From positions 434,001 to 498,000 of the forward strand of contig CM040102.1 in NCBI GenBank assembly GCA_022496805.1: DNA of 64,000 nucleotides, in the 5' to 3' direction. Below are positions 25,639-59,341 of this stretch, in pieces (the first letter of the stretch is position 1; each line of letters begins with the position of its first letter). The position numbers were made by a program, and so were the translations under genes. Below the pieces are notes generated by a model. The model ran no database searches. It had not been told where the DNA came from and saw only the letters and a list, made by a program, of their open reading frames with translations. Source of the DNA: Pohlia nutans (lineage: Eukaryota; Streptophyta; Bryopsida; Bryales; Mniaceae).

Positions 25639-25649
25639 ATGTGAGCCCA

Positions 25650-25700
<51 letters not shown>
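25639..25700 (+). repeat. MULE-1 TIR: GAGAGCG heptamer array
   Basis: Six to seven perfect tandem copies of the heptamer GAGAGCG (period 7) following the TIR proper. Degenerate versions occupy the same place in the three MULE-2-type TIRs. Confidence 0.8.
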
Positions 25701-25704
<4 letters not shown>

Positions 25705-28700
25705 TAGGATTTTTTGAGATTTTTTTCTGGCAATTAAGAAAAGAACCTATGACCGTGGGACGAGAGTCTATGACCATGGGACCATCAGGAATAGGGATTG
25801 AGGGATTTAGGATCATAAATGTTGTATCCATGCAAACTTAGGTTGAATTTTAGATCAGTGTTTAGGGTTCAGGGGTGAGCTCAGTCGTGATGTAGGTGAA
25901 TGTTGTAGAAAGGGTATATCAATTCGTGAATGCATCAACGACCACAAAAGACAGTGATGTGAAAATATATTGCTGCTATGAGAACCAAAGTGTAGTGGTT
26001 GTTTTAGTCTCACTACCAATCATAAAATAACATAGGAATGCAAAGTACATTACACTACGAGGAGTCATCAGAGGAGTCCTCATGTGTAGAAGAGGATGTT
26101 CTAGAAAAAGAGCTAGAACTATGGGTGCGAGATGACTCCGCAGCCTCTAAGTCCAAGTACTGTGAAACGCCGGTATCAGGTACTCCCTCAGTCATGTCCA
26201 CGTCATCCAGGCTATTCTCTGCAAATGCCCTAGCTAGTGGCTCCACGTACACCGGGAGCTCAAACGGTTTCGGAGGACTTGGAAAGAACATCCGGGCAGC
26301 AAAAAATGGCTTGTGTCGAAGAGGGCTCATTCCAATTGAGAAGCTATAACACATATGGATAACATTAGTACATTCAGCTTCCTGAAATGAGTTCAGAATC
26401 AAAGAGCTAGGGAATTTGAATTAAAACAGACTTACTTACTCGTTTTTCTTCTCTTGACCTACGATGGTACGACCTCCATATTGTCTGGGTCCTGAGAACG
26501 CTTCGATCCGGAAGGCTGTGGCGATGGTAGGGTAGCCTTCGCACGCGCCAAAGGAGCGATGAGAACATCAAAGATGGCCTTGTCTTCCTCTAAAGCCACA
26601 ATGTGGCGATTGACATTCCTGCAAGCATGAATGGAAGCGCCTGGAATACACATACAATGTTTATGAAAACAAGTACTATGAATAGATAGATAGAACTTCG
26701 TCGATTAAATGTAAAAACTTCAAAGCTAGTAAGGGTTTAGGGATTCACCAGTCATGGCGTGGCAGTCTAGAACAATGTCTTCGGGCTTGGAACAAGCCTC
26801 AATTAGAACTTGCCAAAAGCCTTTGATCTTCTCTCGGGGTCCACGCCAGGGCTTGGAGCCGTTCATAGCTTGGTCAATTTTGGTGGTGTAGTTTTGCAGC
26901 CACTCGTCCGAACCAGGGTCCACTCCGAACTCATTCATGGACGACACTGGATTGAACTCGAAGGAAGAATCCTCCGATCTCACCAGAAGGTAGGCACCGA
27001 ATCTTTGCGTCTGTGACATCAGAAGCCAATCAAAGGAAGAAACACATAAGGTTTAGGGTTTTATGGTATGATTTATATGGCATGGGCAAGTTGAGATAAA
27101 GGTCTAAGCAAAACGTACCGTCAAATCCTTCTTACTCGGATGACACAAGTGCAAGCGATTCATGCAAATCCAGTTTTTCCTCTCCATGAACCCGTAACTC
27201 TTCGCATACCCGAGTACAGAAGACTTCACCACCACGTCGTAAGGGTGGATGACGACCATCGCCCCACCGTCATGAATGTGATGATCTGCAAAGTCAAATA
27301 TAGCATCCACACTCCAAGTACCATTCAGCGCTACGGAGATGAGACGATGTCCACATCTTCATCTGATGAGAGCTGATCATACAGGTGTCACTAAATAGAT
27401 CACTCCATGTCGCCAAGAAAGGGGGTACAGCATCCTTGGTGATAGCCTTTTTCGGTACCTGCTCAAACATGATGTACCTGCATAAGAAAAGGTAATGATC
27501 AAATACATGAAATCAATGAAGTCTGTAATTCAAAGTAAATCAAAGTGTTGGATTTGAAGGAGATTTTGTAAACGAACCAGTATATGACACGATTGACTAA
27601 GGAAGTTGAATCCGCGTGTTTGGCGAAGTCGTCGTCCTTTTTGAAGCCGTTTCTCTTGAGGACATTTGGGAAGCCAACGTCCTAGAGCTTCATTCTCCAA
27701 ATCTCGAGGTACACGTCAATTTTATCTGCAACCTCGTAATCAATCACAAGCCCATCTTTCTCTGCGATGCTCCTGAAGGTGTCGATAGCCGCGTCCATGA
27801 ACTGCGGTGATCAATGTAAAGAGAATTAGCACAAGAAAGATTGAATTTCCAAAATCAACAAGTAGAGGAAGTGCATATAGACTCACCCCTGCATACCAGC
27901 AAGCCTTGTCTAGCCAATTACTCAGTATGTCTTTGGTGGTTTTGGAGGGGAACTTTCTCGCAGCCCGAGTTTGTTCTGAACTGTTCTACCACATCAACCA
28001 CTGAACCTTGCTATCCGGGCTTGCGATAGAAGTCGCAATGGCTTATAGCTTGTCAAGTTGCATGTCAGGTTCGAGGGAATTCCGAGCATAGTGTCTTTCG
28101 ATCTGCAGAATTTGCAATTATTAGGATTCAGCATTGATAAAGTAAATGCAACAATGAAAGAAATAAAAAGTAAATACCTCGTGCAGGAATTTGTCTCCAT
28201 ACAGAGGATTTGCAACTGCAGTCATTTTGCGCAGTTTGACCTTCAACTTCTTCGTCTTGTCTTTGACGCCCCTCAATATGGCATCCCTCATGCCATCCTC
28301 TGTGATGTCTTCGTCAAGGGTGTGTTCACAGTACTTTCAAAGCTCGGCATTGCCAGCCTTGGCAATGTCATGCTGCACCGCAAATGAAAGTCACTAAATG
28401 AATGACTAAATACAAATAAATAGAGAGGAAGGATGCAATGGGAATAGTTGGATAGATTCACTCACACGAAATATAAGAGTGGTTAAAGTATCAGCCGGAA
28501 GAGTAAACCACGATTGAGGAACATAGGCCTTGGCACGTTCGTACTCAGCGGGACTGATAATACCTTTCAACTGCTCCACTGTCATCATTCCATACTTACG
28601 AACTTGATACAGATCGTGTACCAAGTTCGTCTTCACATGTGAGTTCTCTGTTGATCTGTAACATCAACAGATATTGGACTTAGAATTTGTTATAAATGGC

Positions 28701-29027
28701 AAATTGATATAACAAAATAGCACTAGAGTTGGTTTCAGATATACTTACTTGTTAATCTCGTGCATAACCTGCATAACCTCTCCAATACGCCCTTTTGTAT
28801 CCAAAACAATGGCGTCAACAGATTAATGCCATTTCATCTCTAGCGGGTGGTCGCGAAGGATGACTTTCATCCAAGCTTGCAGACGGTGGTTGCCATCGCA
28901 TACAAAAAACTTGGCGTTGCTGAGATGTTGAAGGGACGGCTTGGTCCGCAGGAACTCCTCAAAATGGACATCCGCTACTCTCCAGTGCGCATTCCAAGAT
29001 TGCTTTTTTTCATCAGAGAAGGTATGG

Positions 29028-30976
29028 TGTCATAGCACGTGATACCGGATATTCCCCTAGAACGCACTTTTTTGTATTAAGAACGCTCGTAGAGGTGATT
29101 TTCGGGTTATCGTTCCGCGGAGACTCTGTGAAGTGGGAAGTTTCCGGAGATGGTCCGGATTGGTGACTACACTCTCTCTCTGTCACCAGCTGAATCCCTC
29201 TTTTCTACTGAACCGGGCCTTCTCCTACTGACTGACCCGGTTACGACTAGATCCGGTATCGTTCCGGGGAGGACTTCTTTCTAATCTTCCTCTCCCCCGG
29301 TCCACCGTTATGACCCGATCCGGTTTCGTTTAACCTCTATTTCCCCTCAGAGGGTTGTCCGTTCACATTAGTGGTGCTGGATTGAAAGACACACCCCTCC
29401 CTACTGATTCAAGTGATGGGAACTTCACTACCTTCCGGTTATGCTAACTCAACTCCTTAATCCGGGTAATTCCCGTACTGCACTTCAACTGCAAATTCAT
29501 CCCTGACCCACAGCCGGTCACTTAAGCGCAACCGGGTTTTCTCCCTTCTAAAAATTACTACAACGACTTGATAACTAGAATAGACACTATCCGGGGAATC
29601 CGAAACTAGTATTCAGGAATTCTAGCGCCCTGTTTTACTCCCGTGATCCCGTATTACCTCTTGCTTGGACTTTCCAAGTGCTGGCACCTCAACCGGACTA
29701 CCCGTCCAGGAGTTTTGAACAACCCGGAGTACCCCCTCCTACTTGCCCAGCCACTAACCCAGATTTCCTAGCGTACGGAACTTAGAAACCACTCTTTCAA
29801 ACAGTCCTCAAATCACCCAAAAACCATATTCAGACTTCACACCCGAATCACTCGAGGACCCAGACTGCCTATCCGGTTACCAAGGGACTCTCGACTACTG
29901 TACCATTCCACAAACAATCCCACAGCACATACACAATTTTCGGATAATGCTCTACAGCAGTTTGCTTTCAAGGAAACAGTAATACAAGAAGACCCCAAGA
30001 ATGCCAAGCATTCTTGGGCAAGTAGTGGCCCTCAACCACTGGACCGGATTTCCCGCCCAGATCCTACAAACCCGTGATCCGGAAATCAAGGGAAATCACA
30101 TCCAAAAGATCCCAATCCTATCCTACTGGCAAAAACGCCTAACCTACCACGAAAAGGTCCTATGCACACGCGGGCTAGTCTACCTAGCCTAATGCCTATT
30201 CCCTAGCTTGATCCAGTTCACACTGCAACCCGGATCCTACTAATCTTCCTGCCCCTCCGGGCCACTGACCCTGTCGCCCTCAGAGCCCCCATCCTCTTCC
30301 TGGTTGGATTTCGGAGAAGCATCCTCCTTCTTCTTGGGCCGACGCTCCCGGACTTCCCCCTGGTCACTTTCCCCCTCGGACTCCGGTTGACTCCCATCCG
30401 ACTCGTCCTCCTAAATCTCGTGTTCCTTCGGTTCGCCCGCATCCACTTTGCACTCCTCTGGCTCACCGGCACCCATCCTGTCTTCTTGGCCACCTACATC
30501 AGGTTGGCCATCTACCTCCTAGTCTTCCTCGGGTCCTAACTTCCTACCCTCGATTGCGCGCGCTCCGCCTAAGCTCCCGGAATATTTGCTCGCCACCTGG
30601 TCGCTCTCCCTGCTCTCTCACAGTATCCGGAAACACAAAAATCTGGCGCAGGGGTGGACTGGAAACACTATGTGAAAATGAACAGTGAACCGCCCTAATT
30701 AAAGCCGCCCATTTCAAGGCGCGAAACGTGGCCGGGTCCATCCCTGACCCGTCCATCCCCTACCCGGTTTCCAGTCCAGGTCCCGTGCCCAACGCGGACA
30801 CCTGTCGTCAAAACCAGACCCTAGCAATAACTCTACAGCGCGCGCGAGCGCCTCCTCTACATAAATAACTAAATGTCCCATTATGGTCACTCCCACACTC
30901 ATTTATGGAGATTCGGGCTACTCCTAGCTACTCTAAAACCCTAACTCTCTACCTCTAAGTCGAACGAGGTTTGACA
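29028..30976 (-). mobile_element. Solo LTR (type B, 1,949 bp, internally deleted) inside the ParB exon
   Basis: Plus-strand ends TGTCATAGCACG and GGTTTGACA, with perfect 5-bp TSD TATGG (29023-29027, 30977-30981). The remaining LTR ORF is only its N-terminus (30544-30756) and C-terminus (30218-30493). The hairpin is at 29995-30017. Removing LTR and one TSD rejoins the host frame exactly (DEHGVIH then TFSDEKK). Confidence 0.93.
29995..30017 (-). other. Conserved LTR hairpin (LTR-E)
   Basis: Element strand: CCAAGAATG, loop CTTGG, CATTCTTGG. Here the G.U pair at stem position 4 of other copies is an A-U pair. Confidence 0.6.
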
Positions 30977-32266
30977 TATGGATAACGCCGTGCTCATCTG
31001 TCGTGGACAAGTAGAAAACGGCTGCTCTTTCGCGGTATCCATGCACAAAATCAGCTTCAAGTAATGTCAAATCACACGACAAAGTCGATCTCACAATCGG
31101 CATGATAGTCATTCGACAAAAGGGAATCAGAATTCGAAAGTCCTCGATTGGCAGAAGACGAAGCTGTTCAATCGTTGTCACCGAATTCAGCGTGTTGATC
31201 GCTCGAAGCTGAAGAGTTGTCAAATTAGTAGTATCCTGGTCCTTGCCGTCGCTATTATCACCATCCGATTCTCCGAGAGTTGGCTGAGGATCGTCAGTGT
31301 CAGATACAACGACAAATGAAGTATATGTATTCTGCAAACATAGAATAAAAAATATATGAAGAATGAAGAAGTAACAAGGATTTGCTCAAGGAAAATGTGT
31401 AAACATATAGCTAGGCTAAGCGTCTACAAATGCGCCGTCCACGTGAGAAAGCCCGACGCCCTCAATGGCCACAATTGTCTACTCCGAGTAGCGGATAACG
31501 TGAGAATGGAAGAATAGAGTCCTGAAGCAGCAATAGGGGAGAAGAGGGGACAAACTCCGGCAAAGAGTAGGGAACACACTCAGGCGAGGAGGGGGTAAAA
31601 TACTCGGGAGGGAAAGAGGAAACAGAATCTCAAGGGCATGTAGGAGTGAAGGCAGTGGAAGAAATAGGAGCACACAGCGGGGGAGAGGAGGGAACAAACT
31701 CATCGGAGGAGGTGGGACAGAATCCCAATGGGGAAACGGGAAGTGATAGCGGAGGAGGGACACTATCATCAGAAGAAGAATACGGAGAAGACAAAGAGCG
31801 GAGAAGAGGAGACAATGACTGAGGCACTGGAAGACGAGTAGACCGATAATCATCAAAACTATCGAGATCGATGACAGGGTGCTCGCAGATACAGTAAAGA
31901 TGATCTGCACTATCGTCAGAGCTCAGATCGATAATCTCCACCTGGAATGCTGCATTCTCCAGAGTACAGTCCTATAGCAATGATAACAAACAGAATTATA
32001 AACATATACTCATGAAGAACTCTAATAACGTAGAAATAACATAACTCAAAACACAACAATGCAAACAAGAGAATGAATACCTCTGGAACGGGAGATAACA
32101 CGGGAGTCTGAGGCGTCTCCTGATCATGCACGACATCTTGGGTCTCAGCAACGATATTCTGCAAAAACACACATATCTAAACACAGACATATTTAAACAT
32201 AGACATATGAAATCAACATTGATGTATGTGAACCATTTCAGCGAAGAAAACGAGAAGTTTTCCTAT

Positions 32267-32350
32267 AGAAAACTTGAAAAGCCGGTGGGCCCCAGAGGGG
32301 TCGTCGCCGGCAACGCCCCCCTTGGGGCCTCCTGGCTTTTCAAGTTTTCT
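32267..32350. repeat. Perfect 17-bp stem hairpin
   Basis: AGAAAACTTGAAAAGCC (32267-32283) and its exact reverse complement (32334-32350) flank a 50-bp GC-rich spacer with GGGCCCC and GGGGCC. A foldback or tiny MITE; no TSD was clear. Confidence 0.7.
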
Positions 32351-32466
32351 TCTCAGAATTACCAAGTCAATGGACTCCTATATAATAGTAATGAATTAGA
32401 TGATTCAAAATAAGGGCAAATCGATAAAAGGAGTGCTAAACAAGACCGAGAGAGTGTGAACCAAAA

Positions 32467-33030
32467 ATGGCAGCACAACGATGAGCCTAGAAATCACCTT
32501 AAACAAAAGCCAACATCGCCCTAATTCTCATAAATTCACCATGGGTAATAAATACGCCAATGGGAGTTAGTTTTGAGATTAGAATTAGGCAAAAAGAGGG
32601 AAATTGCACCCCTTCCTAAAATGGCAGCACAACACTATCTAGGATTTGGACATAAGAAATTGTCCAATTGCATTAAATTCACTCCAATTTCCCACGGGTA
32701 CTGTGTACTCTAAAATGGGATTGGATTTTTACAAATACATTGGATAAGTGACGAAAATTGCTCCGTCACTTAGAATGACAGCACACACAATTTAAACAAA
32801 AATGAACAAAAGATGTTGAAATTGCCTAATTCTATTCAATTTCCCATTGGTACTAAGGGTCCAAAAAATGGGCTTGAATTGGGCAATTTGCAACCCTAAT
32901 GGCCCAAAATACGCAATTAATTAAAAATTACAGCACATTTTCATGACCAAAAACGAGCATCGTGGGCATTCCAAATTGAATTGACACTAGTGACACTGAT
33001 CACACCCACACGTTTTGCAAATTTGGTTGT
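32467..33030 (+). repeat. Degenerate ~154-bp tandem repeat
   Basis: The phrase ATGGCAGCAC or a close variant recurs at 32467, 32621, 32775 and 32927 (spacing 154, 154, 152), with weaker similarity (AATTC...CAATTTCCCA) in between. About 3.5 diverged units, possibly subterminal repeats of MULE-1. Confidence 0.5.
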
Positions 33031-36000
33031 AAAAATTACGACATGCGAGTAAAATGCAGGGTTTTAATTGTCGGCAGCGCTTCCGCGTCGAGCCCGTAAC
33101 CCTAATTTGCAATCCCAATGATTATTTTAACAAGGTGAATTAGGCTCGGGAAAATCGGGCAGCGCTTCTGCACTATACTGTCACCGAGCCCAATTTCAAA
33201 CCCTACACCAAGCATTACTCAAAAACAACCCTCTCACATTGAAGAAAAACCATTTAACGAGGGGAATCATACAACAAAACGAGAGAGAATTTCGCAATCA
33301 AAAATCACCATCTAGGTTACAAGTGTCCGTCCTGACCTAATTAACCTCAATAAGCCAATTTTCAACTAGATTGTGTCAATAATTGGAGAGAGGGAGGTAA
33401 GAATGTGTCCCCTCTGTAATTGGCCGCCACGCCCTCGTCTTTGCTTCAATCGCCACGGAACTTTAGCACAACATAGAAGACTTTGCTTTGTTTCAGCTCG
33501 CGCAAACGACACTCAAAAAGCGTTCGCCAATTGAAAGTTACAAGCCGCCAAACTTTCTGCCCTTAGATCTTGCGGTTGCCAACCTCCTTCCACTCAATCA
33601 GCCACCACGCCCTCGTCTTTGCTCCATTCTCCTCGTGACCTAGCGCCTTGCAAAGCTGACTTGACGGTGCTTGTGACCACAAAATCCCACTTTCAAATTC
33701 GTTACGAACACCAAGATATGGCTGTCCGAAGTTGGGGCTTTGATTACCGCAATCAAATAGCAAGACGAATAGCAAGAACACAAAGGCGATACTAGGGCGA
33801 TACAAACGACGGTGGCGGCAATAACGCGATCGGAGACGACCAGCACGGCAATTTTCTGAAGCAGCCCAGCAGCTTTAGCAATCCTTCCGGACCCAACAAC
33901 TCGGCCAGACCCTCACAGCAAACCTTCCGGACAGACCTCACAGACCCAACAACGCGGCCATCCTTACAGGAAATCCTCACCTGTATAGACGATTCGGCAA
34001 CGATTCGACGATCGTGTCCTCACAGTCCGTCGACGACACAATTACTATGAGCACCTGTGGACGATTCGGCAATGAATAGCAACCAGGCGATGAACAACCA
34101 GGCAATGAGCAACCAACCAAACGATTCGGCAATGAACAGCAATTCGTGGGTACAAAGCGATGAGCATGAGTGGGTTCGTGCAAGGTGATATACGAAGGTG
34201 ATACGTGCAATAGGCGGCTAGGGCAAAAGGCAGTTGGGTAAAAGGCAGCTGTGAAGAGATTCAGCTGTGATGAGAGGTGGCGACGCATGGAGCCACCAAC
34301 ACTAATTACCAACAAATTGACAATTAGTGTTAGACAAGTAGTAGGGGTAAGCACATTATTCATCACCTCACACTAAATATACTATTTAGTGTAGTCCAAG
34401 TCTCACTTCCCTAAAAGAAACCCAAGTTCCTACTCCTAGACTAAAATGTAGATTACCATCAAAACACTCAACAAAACCACAATTAGCCAATTAGAACAAA
34501 AATTACGGCAAAAATACCCGGAAAATAGGACTAATCAACCGGCGTCCAAAAACCCCAATCAAAACCACTAGGCATTTTACCAAAATAGATACTCAGCTAA
34601 ATCGCTGCACTTGCAAAAATGCAAAATAGAAAATCACGCAAAAAGGCCGTGGTAAGGGTTTACCGTGAGCGTGGACCGTCTTGACGGTTCACATGACTCC
34701 GTTACTGAGTTCCTCCAGAACTCACCTATGGATGAGAAATTATGCAGGAGATCACTTAGACAATGGCACACCAGTAGAGTAGAGTAATAGACATTACATA
34801 CAGTTCGTCAGTTACAATCTGGTGGCCATGTGTACTATTCGTATTTGTGGCACTTTGATGGGCCGTTGAGTCAAATGACTTTCATGATAATACCTCTTTT
34901 TCATGTAACTCATTTTTGTAATAGAAGTGACTATTTTACCATCTCCCTTCGTCTATAACTCTTCTTCTTCTTCTTTCTTTGGTCTCTGTGTGTTATTTGT
35001 ATTGTTATATTACTTTGTCCATACATTTTCACTCATGCAATTATGAGATGACATTTGTTCTTCCAAAAGAGCACTATATCGGGAGATCTCTAGATCCAAA
35101 CATTTAAATCATACATTATTCATTACAATGGGGCATGGTTTTACTAAGGCCCTTTCATTTTCTTTCGCTTTATCTGGACTCCACATAGTCCAGAATTCAA
35201 TGAATAGTCCAAAAATAGTTTAATATGGCATTTAGAAACCTTGAATGTAAGTATTGCTCTCCATTTTAGCCTCACGCTAGCGTTGCTACTAAAATTGTAA
35301 TGAAATTATATCAATAAAAATTTCACAATATCTTTTGAAAGAATCCAGACTTTGTAGATGTGAATATACTATGATGCACTCTTAAAGAACACTAATTTAG
35401 TTGTATTTGATTTTTATAAGACAATAAAATAGTAGATTTAGCAAATAAAGCAACTATACTCTTTATTGAATGTAATTTGGATTCATTACTTATGCAGATG
35501 ATAACCAACGAGTACAAGAGTGCCAACTTTTTAGCACTTGCTATTTTTGAAGTACAGGTATATAACTTCCAATTATTGTAGTGTAGGATTTTGGAGTACT
35601 ATCATCTACAGTACGAGTGAATGCACTGAAGTCTGTAGTAGTATGATCATCTCTAGTCTCCATTCATATTGATCAAAAACAAGATTTCTCATCCTCATGC
35701 AAAGCTCCCAATTTCACCACTTTGCCTCACTAGCTGAACACTCTCATTGCATTCAATGCAAAGTGACCTAGGAAAACAAGAAGCGGGACTGAGCACAGAT
35801 TAAAGAGCTAGAACAATATTGGATTTGTCCCTTGCTTTCTTGAATACAATAATACACTACTCAAGACTAGTACATGGTACCTCTCGTTATCAAGCCTAAC
35901 ATTTTCAAGTTAGGGTTCAAAGGTTTAGCATTTAAGCAACTTAAAGTTGGAGAACCTCTTCTCCTTAGTATAGCTCCTTCCGAAAAGACAAGAAAAAAAA

Positions 36001-36329: not shown

Positions 36330-39188
36330 TTACCAATAATCACCACAAGAGCAGACGCCATCTTTGAAGTGGTGAAAGCGATTGGCATCCCTGGCCACAA
36401 TCTCCTGTCCAGTCACCTTGGAGATGAACTTGGTTGCTGTATGGCAATCTGAACACACCCGAAGATTCTTGTATACACGAATTGGCTTTTCAAGAGGCGT
36501 GTGCATCATGCCATAAGCAATAGCTAGCTTTTCACTGTGAGAGCAAAGAGCAAGTTCTTTGTCCTCCTCATCAATATTGCGCAAGACAAGCCGAGTATCA
36601 GGAATGTAACCTTCAGCCCTTAACTTTTTGGTCAAGTTATCCAGCACAGCATAGATCTGCTTTGCTTCTGGGTGAGAGGTATCTCCTACAACAAAGCGAT
36701 GAATCTTGTTATTAATCTCAATCCAGCTAATCCCTGGCTCCTTGCGAATACCTCTTTCCTGCATCATACACCGTATTGATGACACCTGATCCCACTGGCC
36801 AGCGGCAGCATAGATGTTGGAGAGGAGCACGTATGGAGCGGCACCCTCCGGTTCCAACTTAAGAACCTCTTTAGCAGCAAGTTCGCCCAACTCCACATTA
36901 CCATGACTTCTACAAGCACCAAGCAAAGCTCCCCAAGTAGCTGCACCTGCTTCAACTGGCATGTTATCAATTAAGAGCTTTGCTTCCTCTAAGTTTCCTG
37001 CCCGCCCAAGAAGATCCACCATGCAACCATAATGAATCACAGTAGGTTCCATGCCATAATCCTGCATCATAACCCGAAAGAGCCGACGGCCTTCATCAAC
37101 AAGGCCTGCATGACTACAAGCCGACAACACTGCCACAAATAAGTAATCATTAGGTTTCACACCATCAGCAATCAGTCTTCTAAAGACTTCCAGGGCTTCG
37201 TGTCCACGTCCATGGTCTGCAAGTCCACCAACCATCACGCTCCATGTGATGACATCACGTTCCTCCATTCTGTCAAAAACTCGTACAGCATCATCGATGC
37301 TGCCACTCTTTGCATACATGCGAACGAGCGCACTCGCCACGCGCAAATCCGACTCCAATCCATCTGCCAGGATATGGCTGTGCACGTCCTTCACCCACTC
37401 TAATGCACCCGCACTTGCACATGCATTCAAAATGCTCACATACGTGATTGCGTCTGCTACACAGCCCTCTCTTCGCATTCGAAGGAAACATTCATATGCC
37501 TCATGCCCACGTCCATGGTCTGCAAGTCCACCAATCATCACGTTCCATGTGACCACATCACGTTCCTCCATTCTGTCAAAAACTCGTACGGCATCATCAA
37601 TGCTGCCACTCTTTGCATACATGTGGACGAGCGCACTCGCCAAGCGCAAATCCGACTCCAATCCATCTGCCAGGATATGGCTGTGCAAGTCCTTCACCCA
37701 CTCTAACGCACCCGCACTTGCACATGCATTCAAAATGCTCACATACGTGATTGCGTCTGGTACACAGCCCTCTCTTCGCATTCGAAGGAAACATTCATAT
37801 GCCTCATGCCCACGTCCATGGTCTGCAAGTCCACCAATCATCACGTTCCATGTGACCACATCACGTCCCTCCATTCTGTCAAAAACTCGTACTGCATCAT
37901 CAATGCTGCCACTCTTTGCATACATATGAACGAGCGCACTTGCCAAGCGCATATCCGACTCCAATCCATCTGCCAGGATATGGCTGTGCACGTCCTTCAC
38001 CCACTCTAACGCACCCGCACTTGCACATGCATTCAAAATGCTCACATACGTGATTGCGTCTGGTACACAGCCCTCTCTTCGCATTCGAAGGAAACGTTCA
38101 TATGCCTCATGCCCACGTCCATGGTCTGCAAGTCCACCAATCATAACGTTCCATGTGATGACATCACGTTCCTCCATTCTGTCAAAGACTCGAAGGGCAG
38201 CATCAATGCTGCCACTCTTTGCATACATGTGAATAATCGCATTAGCTACACGCAAATCCAACTCCAATCCATCTGCCAGGATATGGCTGTGCACGTCCTT
38301 CACCCACTCTAATGCACCTGCACTTGCACATGCATTCAAAATGCTCACATACGTGATTGCGTTTGGTACACAGCCCTCTCTTCGCATTCGAAGGAAACAT
38401 TCATAGGCCTCGCACCCGCGTCCATGGTCTGCAAGTCCACCAATCATCACGTTCCATGTGATGACGTTGTGATTTATCATTCTGTCAAATACCAGTCGTG
38501 CATCATCGATACTGCCACTCTTCGCATACATGTGAACAAGCGCAGTCCCTACACGCACATCTGATTCAAGGCCATCGTGTCTGATGAGCGCATGAAGCTC
38601 TTTACCCCATTTCAAAGTTGCTGGACTGGCAAATGCCTTCAGGATGCTCAAGTAAGTAACTTCATCTGGCTGCACACCTTCTTGGCGCATTTGATTGAAA
38701 ACTTCCAGTGCATCTTTAGCACAATTGTGCTGAGCATAACCTCCAACCATGATGGTCCAACTATAAACATTCTTGTTCAGAAGTTTATCAAACACTTGGC
38801 GTGCATCTTGCAGCCTCCCACATCTGATGTACACACTCAAAAGGTTGTTCGCCACATATACATTTTGCTCCATTCCACTCTTGATGATGCAGTCATGAGC
38901 CTGCTTGGCCGCCATAAGGTCTTTCTGCTTCAAGCACCGCTTCAGAACTTCAACAAACATGTACGAGTCTATAGTGATGCCTTGTTGGAGTAGATTCTCC
39001 ATAACAGCAAGCGCTTCGCTCGTGGTACTTGTGCTCCAAATGTGCTTACTGCCAACAGCATGAGAATGAGATGTGCCCTGAGAGACTGATTTGAGTCTTG
39101 CCTTCACCCAAGTTGGAGTTTTCCAACCTTCTAGCCACAGTGCTTCTCTTTTCACCTTATGTTTGAAGTCAGGTGATCTGCGGTTCCT
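36330..39188 (-). CDS. PPR protein of PLS class with E and DYW domains (main exon)
   Basis: Organelle RNA-editing type PPR protein. The exon begins at AGGAACCGC after acceptor CTACAG (39189-39194) and ends at TAA 36330-36332 after GDYW. Order: end of a PDF motif (SPDFKHKVKREALWL), about 19 PPR motifs, E/E+ region (GALLGACRSHGNVELGE), and a complete DYW cytidine-deaminase domain with HSEKLAIAYG, CSDCHTATKF and the final CSCGDYW. In known DYW proteins this domain performs C-to-U editing in mitochondria or plastids, the PPR array choosing the RNA site. The centre contains five near-identical 101-residue blocks. The frame is intact, so it is probably an active host gene. Confidence 0.92.
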   Translation of the reverse strand, partial: RNRRSPDFKHKVKREALWLEGWKTPTWVKARLKSVSQGTSHSHAVGSKHIWSTSTTSEALAVMENLLQQGITIDSYMFVEVLKRCLKQKDLMAAKQAHDCIIKSGMEQNVYVANNLLSVYIRCGRLQDARQVFDKLLNKNVYSWTIMVGGYAQHNCAKDALEVFNQMRQEGVQPDEVTYLSILKAFASPATLKWGKELHALIRHDGLESDVRVGTALVHMYAKSGSIDDARLVFDRMINHNVITWNVMIGGLADHGRGCEAYECFLRMRREGCVPNAITYVSILNACASAGALEWVKDVHSHILADGLELDLRVANAIIHMYAKSGSIDAALRVFDRMEERDVITWNVMIGGLADHGRGHEAYERFLRMRREGCVPDAITYVSILNACASAGALEWVKDVHSHILADGLESDMRLASALVHMYAKSGSIDDAVRVFDRMEGRDVVTWNVMIGGLADHGRGHEAYECFLRMRREGCVPDAITYVSILNACASAGALEWVKDLHSHILADGLESDLRLASALVHMYAKSGSIDDAVRVFDRMEERDVVTWNVMIGGLADHGRGHEAYECFLRMRREGCVADAITYVSILNACASAGALEWVKDVHSHILADGLESDLRVASALVRMYAKSGSIDDAVRVFDRMEERDVITWSVMVGGLADHGRGHEALEVFRRLIADGVKPNDYLFVAVLSACSHAGLVDEGRRLFRVMMQDYGMEPTVIHYGCMVDLLGRAGNLEEAKLLIDNMPVEAGAATWGALLGACRSHGNVELGELAAKEVLKLEPEGAAPYVLLSNIYAAAGQWDQVSSIRCMMQERGIRKEPGISWIEINNKIHRFVVGDTSHPEAKQIYAVLDNLTKKLRAEGYIPDTRLVLRNIDEEDKELALCSHSEKLAIAYGMMHTPLEKPIRVYKNLRVCSDCHTATKFISKVTGQEIVARDANRFHHFKDGVCSCGDYW
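37180..38560 (-). repeat. 303-bp coding tandem repeat in the PPR gene
   Basis: MYAKSGSID recurs every 101 codons (about 38530, 38227, 37924, 37621, 37318). Each block is one P-L-S trio (HDNA of about 303 bp) and the middle blocks differ at very few codons. Recent expansion by unequal exchange or gene conversion is likely. Confidence 0.85.
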
Positions 39189-39454
39189 CTGTAGGCACCA
39201 CAACCCACCATCAAATATGCAACATGTGACGCATATTTAAGCCCGGTTAATCTGCACCCAACACTCAACAATCAAGGACAACATTTTTGTCAACCCTCCA
39301 GTGATCAGACTCCACTCCAAAGTACACAAAGCACAATACCTATGCTTGCCTACTGCCCACATCCTTTGTACAACTAAGAAATATCCACCTCACGTGTCTG
39401 ATCCAAGGCCTACATCCACTTTCTAGCATCAACCCACTGGCAGTCCTGGGATAC

Positions 39455-39682: not shown

Positions 39683-39689
39683 CTAATTT

Positions 39690-41662
39690 GTCCACTACGT
39701 CCTCCATGAGGGCACAAGAGCACGGATAACAAAGGGTAGACAGGCCATGGAGACTTGAACAGTGTGTTCGCACGCACATCCTGCTCACAAAAAGCCCAAC
39801 AGTTTTTCAAAAAGCACACTAGTAGCAGAGCTCAAGCACACCTTCCTATCAATACTGGGGTCAGGGGTCGGGGTTCAGTCGACCAAGTTCACGTGCGGCT
39901 ACTTTGGAGAAAATGTAACAACCTAGATATCAAGCATTGCCTTCCGAGCAAGTGCTCACCCGTGATCACCACCTTAATTGTACACAAGGCAATTTAATCA
40001 AGAAGCTGACTGACAAATCTTTCTTTCCGCCCGCAAAGGTGTATATCCAACATAAGAAATGAGCCTCATCTTGATGCTCCGACGGTCTTTATGGCTCGCT
40101 AAGAATTTGAAAGAATCCTCAACTTTCAACCTGAAGGCGCGACCGGAAAGAGGCCAAACCTGGAGTTGTGGAACAGCTTTATGCACAAGGTTGATCCGTT
40201 GCCAGTTTTCACAGGCGCCTCTTATTCGAAAAGAACGTCCACAAGCTTTGGCTGCATGTCTTTGCTGACGAGTTGAAATAGAAGGAGGCCCCAAATATTT
40301 TGTAGAATACGAGGTGCTCGCGGTGATGGCATCAAGCGCCAACGCTGCCCGCCAGTCTGAAACCACAACTGAATGCATTTCGTTTTTCTGAAGAAACAAG
40401 TCGTCAAGCGTGAGAATCCACTAGATTGGGCATCGACGTTCTACCCGAAGAGCGTACTGCAAAAAGAACACATTCACCAATTCGATAATTAGCTAAAGAC
40501 AACATAAACCAGCTGTCCTACTTTGAATTGCCTTCTACAGAAACAACCAGTCAATTCAAAATCCGTTTGGTGATGACTTGCAAACGCCACTAACAAACCT
40601 GCAACAGGGTATGATCCAAAACACCATTCAGCTCTTACCAGCAATTCAAAAATACCGACACTGTAGCTTTAGCGCGAGAATCTGATCATTGGACACGGAA
40701 GTCCAGAGAAATGAATCAGCAACGTCACCAGCAAAGTCGACAAAAAAACAAACCCTATCTCTCTACACGTTCACGACCGCTTACACCGCTTGCAAGAAGC
40801 GCAAAGTTCACTGCCACACGAAACTGACACTCTCAACTAGATTACGCCTCATTGTGAACCCTAAAAACACCAGAAACTCCCCACCAGGCAAAGCCATTCG
40901 TTGCCATTTCTACAAATTCCAATCCACACCTTCTCCTCAACAACCACCTTAAAGCATCAAACCCCTCGCTTTCTCGCATTCAATTCCTCGCTGTCTCGCA
41001 CCATAGAGTGCTCCTCTGAACCCTGTGGAAAGAAAAGCATCTGAATCAATAGTCTACACAGTGACCACCAAGTGACCGATGTGAGGTCTAATTCTGAACC
41101 TTTAATCCGAGCTTGTACTCCCAAGAGGAAATGGGCAACACCAAAGGAGACGCGTACACCCTCGGAACTTGCTGAAAAGACCCCAGCTCACTGCCACGCT
41201 ACATAACTTAGTTAACTGCATGTAGAACAATCACTGAATCAGGGAGAGAAACTCTGGTCCCAAGGGCCAGCGTGAATGAAGAGTCTGTTTGGGGAAGTGC
41301 TTCTAAGTGGGTCATATACCATCTTTAGACATTATCACCTATGGGTAAAAAGAACGGGAACGCACCGCATATGTTGTGTTTGGACACACCGGGCTTACAA
41401 AGGGTCACACCCGTGTAACTCCGCCTTTAGGAATGCACGTGAAAAATCCAAATATTGTCCTATTTCGAAATTTCTTGAGCCCTCGGCTGATTTTTTATTG
41501 CAGTTCCATCGGTACGGGTCTCGTCCTACAATCCACCACCAATTGATTTCTGCATCCATACTCCAAGTGTTGTTTTGGAGACCGTTGCGACTTTTGGGGA
41601 GCCATATCTGATGCAGTTCGTATCCGATTTTGGAATTTTTTATGCCGATTGTGTGTGCTTTT
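39690..41662. other. 5' region of the PPR gene; no other gene recognised
   Basis: Holds possible small upstream exons (candidate transit-peptide frame 40399-40010 minus) and promoter DNA. ORFs at 40689-40952 and 41276-41611 are not convincing. The right end is cut exactly at the LTR terminus at 41663. Confidence 0.35.
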
Positions 41663-44600
41663 TGTCAAACCTCGTTTAATCAAAAACGGGCAGTTAGGGT
41701 TTGTAGGGCAGTAAAAGGTAAACCCATCCGCCATAAATGGAAGAAATGGCGTTCCTAGTGACCTCTTTATTTATTTGGAGAGAGTGGTGCTCTCACGCGC
41801 GTCTTAAGTGTTTGTTACGGAATCTGAGAATGGCGGCGGACCAGACAGGCGACCGGATGGACAACCGAGGGTCGGGGAACGGGCCTCTGCCGGGCCCGGC
41901 CACGATCCTGGAGATGAACTGGGCCGCCTTAAACTGGGCAGCTCACTGTTCATTCCTTCCCGGTTCCTCCAGCCCTCCGTGCACACCCGCTTTTGCACCT
42001 CCGGAGAGCGTTAGGGTTTCCATTCCGCACCCGAAGAGAAAGAGCAGTGAGCGGCCGGTGTGTGAGGATTTGGAGCACCCGGGAGTGAGGGAAATTGAGC
42101 GCTCAGGGAGAAACAATAGCGCAAGGTTAGAATTTGGGAGAGGCGAGCACCCGGACAGCGAGAGCCGCCATTTCCGGCGGAATTTACGGAGAGGAGTAGG
42201 TGCGCAGCCAGGAAGAGAGGCGCGGGGACTCCGGGAGGTCAGGCGCACACTACGGAGGCGAAAAGGGAAGCGTCCGGAGCGCGAGGAGAGCAGTTTACCG
42301 GAGAAGGAGCTGCGCCATTCTCAGGGGAGTAAGGAAGCGCGTCCGGAGTCTGCAGCCATGGCGCGGAGGGGAGCCGGAACGAAGATTACGGAGAAGCGCA
42401 TCTGTCCGGACATCCCGCCGCACGAGGGGGACTTGGACGAGTTGATGAAGGACCTCGAGAAGATGGGGTGCGCGGGGCTCTTTGGGAGAGTGTGGGATGT
42501 GCAGGATTCCCGGATGCTGGAGGAAATTGAGGGCGGGTCTATGTTGAGCGCCTTCCGGACGACCATCCGGGCGAAGTATGGGAGCTGGACCCAGGAGATG
42601 TGGAGGGAGTTATACGGCTTCCCGGACACGAGTGTAGATCTGGAACCGGGAGGCAAGGGCGACTCGGATTGGGTGAAGGCGCGATTCACCCACATTTCGG
42701 GACACGACGGGTTCAAGGTGGCGGACTGCATTATACCCCGGGAGCAACGGTTGCTCCAATATGTGGTGCCCATCTTCAATCCGGAGAAGCCCACCACCCT
42801 CACCGTAACGCTGGCCCGGGGCATCTACTCCGCTCTGCTCCGGGGGAGGAGGATCAACTGGGCGATCCTACTACACCGGAATACGCAGAAGTGGGCAGTG
42901 AACCTGGACAGTAAGAAGGGGTGTCCGTTGGCCCCATTTCTCCACCACCTGTACGAGAGACATGGGTGTCTCACGGAGGAGGAACGGAAGAGGTTGGAGG
43001 AAACGCCCATCCCGGGGCTGAAGAGTCCGACCAAGAGGAGGGTAGCTATTCCGGGTGGAGGAACAGGGACCAGCAGACCCGGGTCGTCGTCACGACCGGG
43101 TGAAAGGAGAATGGCTCCACCCACCTCCCAACCGGACATGAGTAGGAGCCGGGGAGAGGAGCGCAGGAAGGACAAGGAACACCGCCCGGAGAGGAGTCAA
43201 CCGGGAAGGGCCAGCGCTGACTCGGAGCAGAGGACGAAGAGGAGAGAAGACCGGCCCGAGAGGGGCCAACAGGGTGACACCCGGCTGCGTCAAGATGAGC
43301 AGCAGAGGAGGAGGGACCCGGAGACAGACTAACCGGGGGAGGCAAGGTTGCAGCGGGAGCTGAGAACGAAGAGGAGGGAGGATCCGGAAGAAGAGGAGGA
43401 TTCTCCGCAGCCGAAACTGATCCGGAAGAAGACGGTGAGGAATCAGGGAGGAAGTTCCACCCAAGAGCAACCTCAGGTGACCCCGGTGGTGGAGTCCGGG
43501 CCAGAGAAGGAGACAGGACCCACTCCAGCACCGCCACAGGAACGACCGGAAGCAGATTCCAGATTCATGGATGAAGACCCTGCCCCGGAAGATCCACAGG
43601 AACGATTGAGGAAGGGGAAGCAACCAGAGGAGGAGGCAGGTACGTCTCAAGTGCGGTTTCCGGGCCTGAAGAGGAAGTTGGTCCTCATTGAAGAGGAGGA
43701 GCCGGAGGGTCCAGAGACCACCCCTAGGAAGGACAAAGGACCCGTCCGGAAGAAGACAACCCCGCTCAACAAGCGTCCCAAGGAAGCAGGGGACGAAGGG
43801 GAGGAAACAGGAGAAGAGGACGACCGGAGGCAGGAACCACCGTTGGAGGAGGAACCGGTACAGGAGGAAGGTCCACCCGGAGGTGTACAGAAGGAAGGGG
43901 AGGCCCCACTTCGGGCGGAGCACATAATCCTGCAGACCCGGATTGCCTTGGACATGGTGACGGAGCAGTACACTCCCATGTTCGCCGCACTCCGGGAGAC
44001 AGGAACTCTCCTCCGAACAGAGGACGCTCTGGAGTATCCGGCACGGATCCGGAAGCTCCAGAGGAAGCTGATCCGGAGCAGGGAGAAGGAGAGCAAGTTG
44101 GCCGGACAACTACAAAGTCTCCAGGAGGATGAGGGCGAATCCGTTGCTCTCTTGAAGGGTTTGAAGGAGGAGCTGCAACGGAAGGTGGCGTACATCAAGA
44201 GAATGGAGGCCCAAGTGCAGAAGAACGAGTTGCAGATCCGGGAACAGGAGGAGACCATCCGGAGGATAGGGAAAACAAGTCAGCAGTGCATCACCAAACT
44301 GTCGGGGTTGTTCCACCCGGATGGGGAGGCACAGATGAAAGCCCGGCTGTATGACAAGAAAGTAGGTCTGCCGGGATTGGAAGGAGCAGCCCGAATGAAG
44401 AACGTGGTCCGGGAGTATTCGGAGAAGGTGGAGGCCTACCTGATGGAGTTCCAGGAACTGGCGGAGCACATGAGGGGGAGCTTCTCCGATGAAGAACCGG
44501 GCCAGGAGGAGACAGCCAACCGGGGCGATAAAGTAGGGTCCGGGGAGGGACTGCAGGGGATGTTCAATGTGTCTGCAGATGCTCCTCAGGAGGGTGAAAT

Positions 44601-46203
44601 CGACCGGTTGATGCGGAAGGGGAGCTCAACGCAGGAGCACACCTCCCGGGTAAGGTTGGATGTGGAGCCAATCCACATGGTCCGACCGGCCGGAGTGAGC
44701 CCTGTGGAAGTCCGGAACCTCTTGGAAGAAATGGAGGCGATGGGCGTTCAGTCGAACAGGGTGGAAAGGCAACCGGGTGGGCCAGGAGGTCACCCGGGTA
44801 GCCAGTCGGGAGGTACGCAAGTAGGCGAGCCAACCGGAGGACGACAGGTGGAGCAGCCGACCGGGCACGAACTACGAGGAGCTCGGCCCACGGATCCCAT
44901 CATGGTAGACAGCCCGGAAGTCCAGGAGGGGCAGCCAATGGAGGATGAGCCGCTGCCCGGGACTGCCGGGAGTCCAGGATTAGTGGTCCGGATTTAGTGG
45001 ATCTGGTCGTGTAGAGTAGGACCTTTTGAGTAGGTAGAGTAGAAGACTTTTTGTGTATAGGCTTTTTAGGACTTTAATGCTAATGGCGGCTTAGGATAGG
45101 AACTAAGCCGTGGAGGAAGCTCCCCGGATTTCCGGATCCCGGGAATGTAGGATCTACGGAATTCCCGGATCTGGGCGTTTGGGGCGGCTTTTTATCCAGG
45201 AATGCTTGTCATTCTTGGGTGTCTTTTTGTGTACTATTGTTCCGTGTAAATGAATAGAGACACATGTTCTTTCCACCAACTCTGTGTGTGTGTGTGTGCA
45301 CATGTGTGTTTGCTTGTGGTATTGCCCGGAATAGTGTCTTAATTAGTCCTTTGGTAACCGGGTGGATTAGCCGGGTTCTGGTGTAAGAGTCAGTTCAGAG
45401 TCCGGGTAGAAGATTTGGGAGAATTAGGAGCGTTTGAATGTAGGGTCTTCCGGGACTGGTTGCAGGAAATACTCTGGATTAGTGGCTGAGTGAGCAGGAG
45501 GGGGTACTCCGGTTCTCTCAGAACTCCTGGACGGGTAGTCTGGTAGAGGTGCCAGCATCTGGGTAGATCTTGTAATTGCAGGGTACGGGGAAGCCAGAGT
45601 AAAACGGGTCGTGAGGAATTCCATCTCTTCCGGACACCCTAGATGCTGTCCACCCCGGTTAGCAAGTCGTTGTAGTATTTTTAAGGGGAAAACCGGGTTG
45701 CTCTTGTGTGACCGGCTGGGGGTTTGGGATAAACCCACAGTTGAAGGGCAATACGGAAAGTACCCGGAGTAGGAAGTGAGTTTGGATAACCCGGAAGTTG
45801 TGAAACCCCTGTCACGGAAATCAATAGGGGAGGGTGTAGCTTTAAATCCAGCATCCTTAAAAATGCAAATGGAGAACCCTCTGAGGGAAAACAGAGGTTA
45901 AAGGGAAACCGGATTAAAAGGTTAGGATAGACCGGGTGGAGTAGGGTTGGTTAAACTCCCAACCCAGACAGATACCGGATCTATCCATAATCGTATTAGT
46001 TAGTAGGGAAGATCCGGTTTGAGTAGAGGAGAAGGGAGTTAATTGGTGACTGGAGGAGAGTAGTCACCAATCCGGATCAGTCCCCGGAAACTTCCCACTT
46101 CACAGAGTCTCCGCGGAACGATAACCCGGAAATCACCTCTACGAGCATTTTTAATACAAAAAAGTGCGCTCTAGGGGAATATCCGATATCACGTGCTACG
46201 ACA
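41663..46203 (+). mobile_element. Solo LTR (type A), right copy
   Basis: Duplicate of 6546-11086. Starts TGTCAAACCTCG and ends CACGTGCTACGACA. Only the protease-side flank carries the TSD (AGTCC 46204-46208). Non-coding part 45000-46076 includes the hairpin at 45196-45218 and a (GT)n tract near 45282-45302. Confidence 0.92.
41737..44997 (+). pseudogene. LTR-encoded protein, type A (right copy, one internal stop)
   Basis: Same as the left copy: 531 codons, TAA at 43330-43332, then 549 codons in the same frame. Differences seen: Phe for Leu in the FNPEKPTT segment and Arg for Gln in DRLMRKGSS. The identical stop in both arms shows that it predates the duplication. Confidence 0.6.
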
Positions 46204-47172
46204 AGTCCCACCGGAACTACTCGAGATTGGTCTGCCATCCGGAGTACCATTTTCGTGTCTTCCAGGGAGGTGTATCCTAAATCAAAAGCCGTATCTTCCA
46301 GCATGAGGTTCACCCCCGATCCTCCATCAACCGGAATACGGTGAATGCTACAACCGTCTATCTCCACCGTAATTTCCGGTGCACCATAGTCTTCCACCTT
46401 TGCGAAATTCACCGCTACCCCCGGAAGCTTGTACCTCTTTTTCCGTCGCTGGATCCAGGCTTCCCGGATCACCTTCTGGTAGTTGACATTATCATGCAAA
46501 AGTTGACCAATGGTCACGTTGGCTCTCTGGTCCTTAATGTCCTGCAAAATATCGTACTCATCTACCCGGATTTTGGGATCCGGTTGGAAAATAACCGGTT
46601 GATCATCAAACCGGACTTTCCGCAGACTCGGGGTGTCACCCGGATCCACTAATTGCTGCCTGACTTTTTGGCTAATATCTCTATCTATTCTACTTGGTTC
46701 TACCCCTTTTTCTAGCTCTACTGTGGGTGCAGCATCTACAGGAACTCGGACAGTGACAGGTGAGTCACTCTCCGAATCCGGTTCCTTTCTAGATTTCCGG
46801 CTACCCCGGCTATTCTTCTTTCTACGTCTAGAGCTAGCACTGACCTTTTCTTTGGTGGAACTACGGGTCGCCACTTTATTCACCGCAATGTCCTCCCTTC
46901 CCGGTAGCCCCACCTCACCATGTCATTTTTCCGGATTTTCCACTCCGGACGTGTGGCCGTAGTTGAGTCCGGTCTGTTCTCGGGGTGGAACTTCCACAGT
47001 TTTGAACAGCACTCGCGGTTGAGGTGGTTCCGGACACTGAGTCGCAGTATGCCCGTACTTCCCACAGTTCTGGCAAGGTAGCTGTAACATCTCGCCCTGT
47101 TGTGAAGACGGCAGTGGGCAGCTGTTGGCGTAATGTCCTGGTCCTCCGCACTTGTAGCAGTAGATTACGCGC
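46204..47172 (-). pseudogene. Gypsy Gag zinc knuckles plus protease (right copy)
   Basis: Duplicate of 5577-6545 with CYKCGGPGHYANSC, CQNCGKYGHTATQC and PVDGGSGVNLM; the same in-frame TGA lies at 46923-46925. One substitution (Thr to Ile) is seen in an alternative frame near 47050. On its right the 10-bp target GATTACGCGC (47163-47172) joins MULE-2, and the frame resumes in gag at 59342 (YAERVI/YCYKCGG). Confidence 0.85.
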
Positions 47173-47222
47173 GGAAAACTTAGTAGTGTGAGCGCAGATC
47201 GGAGAGCAGAGTTTGGAGAGCG
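47173..47222. repeat. MULE-2 left TIR
   Basis: GGAAAACTTAGTAGTGTGAG followed by GCGCAGATCGGAGAGCAGAG and GGAGAGCG; aligns with the right TIR with gaps. Confidence 0.75.
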
Positions 47223-48507
47223 CAGATTTTCATTTTTTTAAATCATTTTTAGTAGGAAAAATACCTATGACCGTGGACATTGGGTTATTTTTAGGGTTAT
47301 TTTTAAAGAAAAGGACCCCAAATCCGTGGAAATGGGTAGAATTTTCAAAATCCTAGTTCAAAACAAATTAATGGATTTTCAATGATTTTCCACGGTATTA
47401 CTTACAAAAATCAAGAAAAGTGCGAATAAAATAAGGACTCTTGTGAACACCGATGTAAATAAATTAACACAAAAAACTTCATATAAAATCCAAATCAAAC
47501 CAAAACATAAAGAGCTCAAGTCTCCACAATGAAGAGGCCTAATCAAGGGCTAGGACTCCTGTCAACATCACTATCCTCGCCTTGTTTAGCCTCTATATCC
47601 ATAAATCGGTATACCCCCTGTTAGTCTGGGTAATTGTATGGAGATGACTGAGACTAGTCTTAGGCCAGCAGGGCTGCCTAATCAAAGAAGACAAGGAGCA
47701 AAGGCAGAAGTTAAGAAGTCAAGTTGAGTTAGTCAGTGATTAGTTTAAGATGTGTGTGCCCCAACTTCCAAGACGTACCTAGGTTCCCCAAGAGAGTATA
47801 CAATAATGTATACAACTTATACGCTGGATTGCCGATGGTATACAGTCTTGGACTTCCTTGGCGTACTTGGACTCCTTGCGAGTTAGACAAAGTCAGAGAA
47901 AGTCGTGTGATACCTGAGATAGTCTGTGAGTAACTAAACTCAGTAACGCTCAGTTCCTAGACGTCCTTGGAGTCCTTGGATAACGAGTGTTTTGAAGACA
48001 GAAAGACAGAGTATAAGTGAGGTTATGCCTGAAGACGGAGCTCAGAGCAATGACAACTTGGTACGAGGAATAGTCAGAGTATAGCCGGTCTATCTAAGTA
48101 CTTGTGTTAGTGTTAGTTAAGCAGGGAAGAACATGTTTTCCCAGCCTCCCAAGTTAGATAGCATTGAGGTGACAATGAGTAGTGAAGACAGAACCGTAGA
48201 GACAGAGAATGTAAGAGCGTATGTTTATTCCAAGGATGTAATAACACACGTATACAGTATAAAGACTAAGTCCACAGAACTATGTTAAACAGAGGAATTG
48301 AACCCATGTATTACATAAACTTTCAACCATGGAATCCAGGTTTAACATGGAATAAGCAAGGAATGACTTCTTGGTACATCAAAACCAGAGCATAACTAAA
48401 TGCTCATAAGTCTCAAAAACCAAGAGTGTCTCGTCACTATCGTACACAACTTTTATACTTAAGCCTGGTCCGTAATCTAAGCCAAACACTGCCAGTTCCA
48501 CCGTCTT

Positions 48508-50110
48508 CTATCTCCTTGTCCTTCGTGGCGGCCGTGTGTCTTGGTCCGGTAACACCCCCCTATCAAACTTCTGCATGCGACGAGAGGGTGGTGAAGCTGC
48601 AACCGCTTGCTGATGGGCAACCTCAGCAGCATACGATGGCAATTCGAATTCCCTTGGAAGGGTTCCAAAGAAGCTCGGACGGAGAACACGGATCGGGCTC
48701 GCCTGTGGAACTCTGGAAACAAGAATATAAGAGGATACATAAGCATTAGTAAAGAAAGAGAAGAAGATGAACAATGGTGTGCCAAGTGAAAAAACCGACT
48801 TACTTACAGTTCTTCTGGCGTCGTACGAGCTTCTAGGCAGGATCCTCAGAATGAGAATCTTCGAGGTGAACAGTAGGCTTTGGTAAAGGCACGGGATCCC
48901 GCATGGGGCGAAGGATGACCTCAAAGATTTTCGTGTCCGCCTCCAACGCCACAATGTGGCGCTCACCTTCACAACACGCACTAATGGAAGCACCTAGAAG
49001 AAACAAAATGAATGAGCGAAACAAAACCACTAGAACTGCAAGAAATGAAGAACAAAGACAATTATGCAAGGGAGGTAATGGAGAAACCTGTGGCTGCGTG
49101 CCAATCCAAGACAATGTCGTGCCTTTGGGTGAGAGTGTGGATGATGATGCTCAAAAATTCCTTGTGCTTCTCCCGAGCCCTTCTCCATGTCACAGTGCCA
49201 TCCTTGAAGAGTTGGGTGTTCTCATCTGTGAAGTTGTGAAGAAGGGAATCCTTCTCAAGTGAGAAGCCCAACTTTGAAAACTCCGTGGCCTCATACACGG
49301 TGAGAGAGGCGCCAAGGGGCACAAGCACCTTGATAAAAAAGCGCTTAGTCTGCACAAAAAAAACCACATACTTACTGACAAAGGGAGGAGATTGAAACTT
49401 GAAGAGAAATTGGGTGAGAAGAGAAAAAACCTACAAACATATTTGGATCTTTGAGCGGAGATAAAGTAAAGGTCATTTACACCCCACCAATCCCTTGCCA
49501 CACTCCATTTAGCCTCTTTGCACCAATTGCGAAGTTTTTTGTGCACCTTGGGATCATCGCCATATATGATCACAAGAATACCATTGTCAGAAATCGGAGG
49601 TGGAGCTAGAAATAGCGGGCATATGGAGGTTCTCTGGAACATCTGCAAGGATGAGGTCGATGCCAGAGTGGGACTTGGGCTTCCTTGTGTTGGAGCAAGA
49701 GCGGCGCCTCCAACCTGGAAAGAAAAATAATAATTATCAAACAAGGAAGAAGAACGCTCGTAGAAAACAAATTGGATCAATGCAAAAGGAGATAACTCTT
49801 ATCTTGACAAGGAACTCTTCAATTCAGAGGAAGGCTTCGTGGGGGGTCTTGGTCTTATTGAAATGCTCCATGAGGTCCCCATGTAAACATTTGCAATCAG
49901 AGTGTACGTCGAAGTACCCTCTGCGAAAGTAACACTCGTAGCCGCACCAAGAGCCTTTCTCTTGCGAGTAAAGGCGGGGGCAGTGGCTGCGCTATGAGAA
50001 GGTGCAAGGAGAACTGAGGGACAACCAACAACGGTGGGAGTAGGGGCAGCCGATGCCAGTACTGCAGCCTTTGTAGCAGAACGGGTAGTGATAGTACCTT
50101 GCGAAGCCAT
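48508..50110 (-). pseudogene. N6/N4 DNA-methyltransferase-like gene, copy 2 (in MULE-2)
   Basis: Starts at ATG 50110 (MASQGTITTRS). Visible blocks: CLHGDLMEHFNKTKTPHEAF, motif IV-like DLILADVP (near 49660), strand GILVIIYGDD followed by WWGVNDLYFISAQ, a further exon ending DIVLDWHAATG, and after an intron GASISACCEGERHIVALEAD, the motif I/X region. The intron sits at the same place and phase in motif I as in copy 1. The final exon (48508-48713) follows a GTAAGT intron. A frameshift, an in-frame TGA after PHEAFL and another near SDF show that it is broken. The ParB-like part seen in copy 1 is absent here; that side is occupied by the minisatellite. In this family motif IV is ADVP rather than DPPY. 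Confidence 0.65.
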
Positions 50111-55435: not shown

Positions 55436-55507
55436 GATGCATGGTCGCTCCATACATGGGTTTTAAGAATGTTAATCCAAATGGTGTTAGACTTACAATT
55501 TCCACAA

Positions 55508-59331: not shown

Positions 59332-59341
59332 GATTACGCGC

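Follow-up and report, generated by a model that had tools for sequence, protein, structure and literature searches.

A ParB- and methyltransferase-like gene carried by a Mutator-like DNA transposon family of the moss Pohlia nutans

We analysed a 64,000-nucleotide stretch of the genome of the moss Pohlia nutans (GCA_022496805.1, contig CM040102.1, positions 434,001 to 498,000; hereafter the window) and found in it what are very probably two decayed copies from a high-copy family of Mutator-like DNA transposons, with an accessory gene that has ParB-like and methyltransferase (MTase)-like parts. The anatomy of the element is clear: it has terminal inverted repeats (TIRs), 10-bp target-site duplications (TSDs), a transposase and a divergently transcribed, intron-rich ParB-MTase-like gene, with satellites in between. 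We infer that the ParB, linker and MTase exons form one gene. An original prediction, made from the sequence of the window, had held the gene to be part of the transposon and not an accidental capture, and the TSDs, the restoration of an interrupted gag frame and the genome-wide co-occurrence with the transposase support this view of it as a regular cargo of a TIR transposon, not a chance neighbour.

The element that carries copy 2 of the gene spans 12,159 bp (47173..59331), has related TIRs and a 10-bp TSD, the left (47163..47172, +) and right (59332..59341, +) copies of which are identical 10-mers, and sits in the gag of a Ty3/gypsy retrotransposon, whose frame, including the CCHC knuckles, is uninterrupted once 47173-59331 is removed. 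Its left end, a TIR with GAGAGC-type repeats (47173..47329, +), and its right end with TIR (59181..59331, −) match a full-length element at nhmmer E=1.1e-36 and E=1.2e-35, respectively, and are related to each other (local score 24 versus ≤17 in 2000 shuffles, with a TIR-to-TIR match over ~52 bp). Between them lie the MTase-like gene remnant (48508..50110, −), ~71 units of a 66-bp satellite (50499..55163) and a transposase remnant (56024..57977, +), which has 98%-identical copies on other contigs and corresponds to open reading frames (ORFs) of 902 and 482 aa in the full-length element. Copy 2 has frame changes and stops; from E18330 onwards the full-length gene runs collinear with it. Because its ParB part and the N-terminal part of its transposase are missing relative to the full-length copy, the copy 2 element is a shortened derivative. 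A 151-aa ORF (58205-58657, −) between the transposase remnant and the right TIR has no Pfam match and may be a third gene that the element carries.

Copy 1 (26055..32190, −) is a broken ParB and MTase-like gene. Its MTase blocks are 33% identical to those of copy 2 over 200 aa (E=1e-28), as the predicted kinship of the two genes requires, and by eye both genes have a phase-1 intron at the same point within motif I, also as predicted, and a phase-0 intron ahead of T[QK]RF. The ParB exon is split into a first half (30978..31337, −; 89% identity to residues 1-120 of the ParB relative P0027) and a second half with DGNHR (28718..29026, −; 91% identity to residues 120-222) by a 1,949-bp gypsy solo long terminal repeat (LTR; 29028..30976, −) with TSD CCATA. 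The MTase exons downstream of motif IV, with motif I LDCHAMTG (26462..27325, −), are followed by a C-terminal exon (26058..26345, −) that by eye resembles the final exon in both copy 2 and the full-length gene. The motif IV region and then motif I had been expected in both genes, but copy 1 is without the motif-IV stretch: relative P0021 aligns to copy 1 at 94%, from residue 45 only. Stops are present in both window copies. Comparison with relatives led us to drop the idea that C>T change accounts for all of them. An 84-bp imperfect palindrome (83%; 32267-32350) lies near the 5' end of copy 1.

Both genes are transcribed towards a related TIR. The inner part of the copy 1 TIR, with GAGAGCG heptamers (25639..25760, +), matches the left and the other end of the copy 2 element by nhmmer (1.2e-8 and 1.6e-5), with local scores of 39 and 37 versus ≤18 and ≤19 for shuffled sequence. 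Its outer end lies by eye at ~22515-22527, beyond a solo LTR (22528..25633, +; TSD CTAGT), and no right TIR of copy 1 was found within the window. Of the prediction that GAGAGCG repeats stand beside both genes, the TIRs and the direction of transcription hold, but the exact array is strong at copy 1 only (25650-25704); in the TIRs of copy 2 the repeats are degenerate.

The original prediction implied that intact copies should lie between TIRs together with a transposase, and full-length elements indeed occur on C2, C6 and C18 of the source genome (698 Mb in 332 contigs searched). The element at C2:25766528-25782473 has both TIRs, the 902- and 482-aa transposase ORFs and satellite arrays placed between the two genes; its ParB exon (38% identity to P0027, E=2e-37), linker exons and MTase exons stand in order, with open frames and antisense to the transposase, as in algal accessory genes. 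The copies on C6 and C18 measure 17,215 and 23,309 bp. Set against C2, their longest aligned blocks show 99.84-99.91% identity (7,126 bp, with a satellite array in it, and 5,397 or 5,720 bp); the remaining listed blocks, with shifted satellite matches left out, are 100, 99.35 and 99.04% identical. Over 351 MTase and 117 transposase codons, the C6 copy does not differ from the C2 copy and the C18 copy has one nonsynonymous change. The element family has moved very recently. In 15 stretches, comprising the window, 13 other element loci and L002 (C18:424001-434000), both ends are found in ten, one in four and none in L002, and the TSD is 10 bp in 10/10 two-ended elements, nine of them exact and one with a mismatch, as read by eye.

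Queries with the transposase exon, the copy 2 MTase exon and P0027 each gave at least 150 matches (the best 150 of 1691, 1470 and 1489 candidates, respectively), those to P0027 with up to 99% identity. Of the 150 MTase matches, 42 have a listed transposase match no more than 20 kb away, 41 on opposite strands and 40 divergent, compared with an average of 2.3, and never more than 10, in 500 random placements; contig extents were approximated in this test by the largest listed coordinate, and a few matches look like local duplicates. The other 108 are without a transposase match among the matches listed. Eighteen of the best 150 transposase matches, the window copy included, begin at the first residue of the query (88-100% identity), unlike the three full-length copies, in which the match begins at residue 22; the 17 others are probably also shortened derivatives. 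In the P0027 search, among the matches listed, 45 of 52-56% identity each contain a TGA inside the matched stretch, mostly a single one, which may reflect an intron kept in frame, decay common to these copies or the copying of a broken lineage.

A 99% copy of the copy 1 type is present at C3:21.06 Mb with a related TIR, a transposase and a ParB exon, the gene being interrupted by a further TIR-like stretch. Because this locus has its own transposase, which shares 44% identity with the 902-aa ORF and is transcribed divergently from the ParB exon, the gene arrangement appears to be common to diverged lineages, with the copy 1 lineage known at one locus.

The MTase-like and ParB-like domains are both supported as real. 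A profile check against PF01555 and PF02195 had been proposed, and the former is passed by one construct, a copy 1 fragment with 27.0 bits over a cut-off of 26.7; a longer copy 1 construct (25.0), copy 2 (15.1 and 13.9) and relative P0001 (25.2) fall below it. Five of 26 MTase relatives, drawn from 261 candidates, match PF01555 at E≤0.05, and a PF01555 family search of the source genome gave no match at E≤1e-3. The sole named relative is KC19_5G032000 of the moss Ceratodon purpureus (50% identity), which has a precomputed PF01555 match and scores 25.2 bits in our own scan. The AlphaFold2 model of the MTase part has a pLDDT of 55, and a 722-aa copy 1 construct used as query found no matches.

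In beta-class amino-MTases motif IV precedes motif I, an order also seen in the moss domain. Canonical motif IV is (D/N/S)PP(Y/F/W), such as DPPY, and the S-adenosylmethionine-binding motif I is FxGxG. In this family motif IV reads VDYPE (three times), VDYQE, ADIPE and IDVLE in six covering relatives and DVPE in 11 of 13 genomic copies, the others having ADVPK and VDVSE; overall, D[VYI]PE is found in 15/19 and the canonical motif, DPPY included, in 0/19. Copy 2 has ADVPE, in another frame. Motif I is HAxTG in the window copies and the full-length copies, and TAMTG, HAMTG and similar in most relatives; P0004 keeps the first glycine only. The ratio of nonsynonymous to synonymous differences (pN/pS) over four MTase exons is 0.36-0.57 for ten short copies relative to a full-length one; the window copy, with a frame slip in its motif-IV exon, gives 0.69. 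These are simple pairwise counts and are therefore moderate evidence that the MTase exons are under constraint. From its motifs, we infer that the MTase-like domain may have lost catalysis.

The predicted ParB-type motif, FVCDGNHRLQAW, is present in copy 1. PF02195 matched neither copy 1 nor any of 23 relatives, two of which have a weak DUF1015 match, and the ParB assignment therefore rests on the motif and on a modelled structure that is predicted to adopt the ParB/sulfiredoxin fold. Each 66-bp satellite unit of the window contains a 47-bp near palindrome, with two 23-bp arms about one central base that match at 20 positions, a value reached in 0/3000 shuffles; as the palindrome is of odd length, a test for even-length palindromes missed it. 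Units in both arrays of the full-length element also match at 20/23 positions (≤17 and ≤15 in 300 shuffles). A position weight matrix scan found no satellite sites elsewhere in the element or in the parts of the window that it covered. Our guess is that the palindromes are putative binding sites.

The transposase contains CxxHW, NLAESVH and, near the end of the remnant, a SWIM-like CxC..CxH. The TIRs, the 10-bp TSDs, the antisense second gene and the SWIM-like motif fit Mutator-like elements (MULEs), and to this extent the predicted Mutator label stands, but at E≤0.1 Pfam has no match for either the 902-aa or the 482-aa ORF, and we therefore keep the name at "Mutator-like".

For the role of the gene we tentatively propose that it encodes a DNA-binding factor for the element, with a non-catalytic MTase-like domain, that aids transposition or counters silencing. 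In this protein a ParB/sulfiredoxin-fold domain, which would serve to dimerise or to bind DNA under nucleotide control, perhaps on the palindromic arrays, is joined to a beta-class amino-MTase-like domain that, without the catalytic DPPY, would bind DNA instead of methylating it. The complex might then favour transposition or shield the element from silencing. VANC, the anti-silencing factor of VANDAL MULEs, provides an analogy. A more elaborate scheme, which we think decidedly unlikely, is a eukaryotic partition-like or anti-silencing system in which the protein would sit on the ~47-bp satellite palindromes and spread as ParB does from parS, with the dead MTase domain reading the DNA and keeping the element able to be transcribed and to move.

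The original prediction of a DNA-modification system holds in that the MTase-like domain is real, but with both motif IV and motif I changed, in full-length copies too, modification is doubtful. It is somewhat unlikely that the protein is an active MTase, for N4-cytosine or N6-adenine, whose motifs are unusual and which its ParB-like part directs in marking the transposon's own DNA: most sequences have HAxTG or TAxTG in place of FxGxG, and D[VYI]PE takes the place of DPPY. Weighing against a non-catalytic domain are the GxG of motif I kept by 2/21 covering relatives, P0005 (CGTG) and P0012 (CGIG), as well as the PF01555 similarity, the pN/pS below 1 and a domain pair like that of algal genes (PMC12477816). 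MULEs are known for gene capture (PMC6446971, PMC13317346) and both window copies are broken, but chance capture of host gene fragments of the Pack-MULE type, with no function for the element, is very improbable given the same divergent arrangement in at least 40 matches and apparently in diverged lineages (the copy 1 type at its one locus), the open frames and, again, the pN/pS. Gypsy LTR ends (TGTC...GACA) adjoin or interrupt both loci, and ordinary host genes flanked by retrotransposons, with LTR ends mistaken for TIRs, might be imagined; the TSD, the gag restoration, the TIR pairs and the genome-wide co-occurrence make the probability of this negligible, and the notion was dropped once the related end at ~59.2-59.3 kb was found.

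The window is otherwise rich in Ty3/gypsy elements with LTRs of up to ~4.5 kb. One family with LTRs of ~4-4.5 kb is seen at 15206-19198, 6546-11086, 41663-46203 and 60923-64915; these LTRs contain an ORF of up to 855 aa with no Pfam match, and a reading of two 99%-identical gypsy LTRs as one simple element failed the TSD check. A large inverted duplication (3860-11086 and 41663-48889; 7,227 bp, 99.82% identity, 13 mismatches) accounts for the terminal part of a duplicate of the copy 2 element at 3860..5576 (+), with its TIR end at 5576. One arm, into which an insertion that has 259-bp terminal repeats and looks copia-like has gone, extends into L002, which has another copy 2 gene. A pentatricopeptide repeat (PPR)-DYW gene (36333-39236, −; 968 aa in a single open frame) contains a tandem repeat of 303 bp (4.4 copies, 93% match), a recent expansion of PPR repeats; the gene points to a land-plant source, as the Ceratodon relative does to a moss.

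The prokaryotic or viral origin suggested for the accessory gene could not be shown. MTase and ParB alignments found no relatives in viral and prokaryotic contigs, and P0137 had no match in phages; the copy 1 MTase part weakly matched 30 phage records, the best among the matches listed at E 4e-4 and none covering 80% of the query. The ParB-like domain differs from the ParB/Noc/KorB and sulfiredoxin fold families in being 13% identical, without a PF02195 match and followed by an MTase-like domain. Other prokaryote-type amino-MTases are found in eukaryotes, among them MpDN4MT1a/b of Marchantia, also a bryophyte (PMC8566409), and N4CMT of bdelloids (PMC8885841); unlike the moss protein, these are reported to deposit N4-methylcytosine, and the parts of those reports drawn on here describe neither transposon cargo nor a ParB part. 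MULEs such as MuDR and VANDAL share with the moss element TIRs, a TSD within 8-11 bp and, in many cases, a second ORF antisense to the transposase and SWIM, with a minisatellite in some (PMC6446971). The transposase of the moss element is not recognised by Pfam, and the extra ORFs and motifs of MULEs tabled in the sections of that paper drawn on include PMD, FAR1, SET and an ovarian tumour gene, with methyltransferase unmentioned. In the open-licence PMC literature searched, in so far as its text was available, we found no report of a ParB-MTase gene in a land plant or a MULE.

The original prediction had set the gene apart from MULE accessory genes such as mudrB and Ulp1-like proteases. It is not new in kind, because ParB plus N4/N6-MTase genes have been reported, in the excerpts of the source used here, in transposons of brown, red and green algae (PMC12477816), and we regard the moss gene as a variant of the kind described there, a likeness drawn from the domain pair and arrangement as set beside those descriptions. 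The findings extend such genes to a land plant and a Mutator-like element type. The high copy number and very recent copies, in a plant, make their role testable. For Ectocarpus, marking of the transposon's own DNA has been suggested (PMC12477816); contrary to this, the altered catalytic motifs and some constraint in the moss suggest that methylation may not be the purpose. A caution also follows for plant genes with a PF01555 match, such as the Ceratodon protein, which may be transposon genes. As described in the same excerpts, which mention neither the state of its motifs nor satellite arrays, Sola1-1_Ec32 of Ectocarpus resembles the moss element in joining a prokaryote-type ParB-like part and an amino-MTase in one large protein, of 1104 aa there, and in carrying this gene on the strand opposite the transposase of a large DNA transposon; it differs in being a Sola1 element of an alga, whereas the moss element is a Mutator-like transposon with a 10-bp TSD in a land plant.

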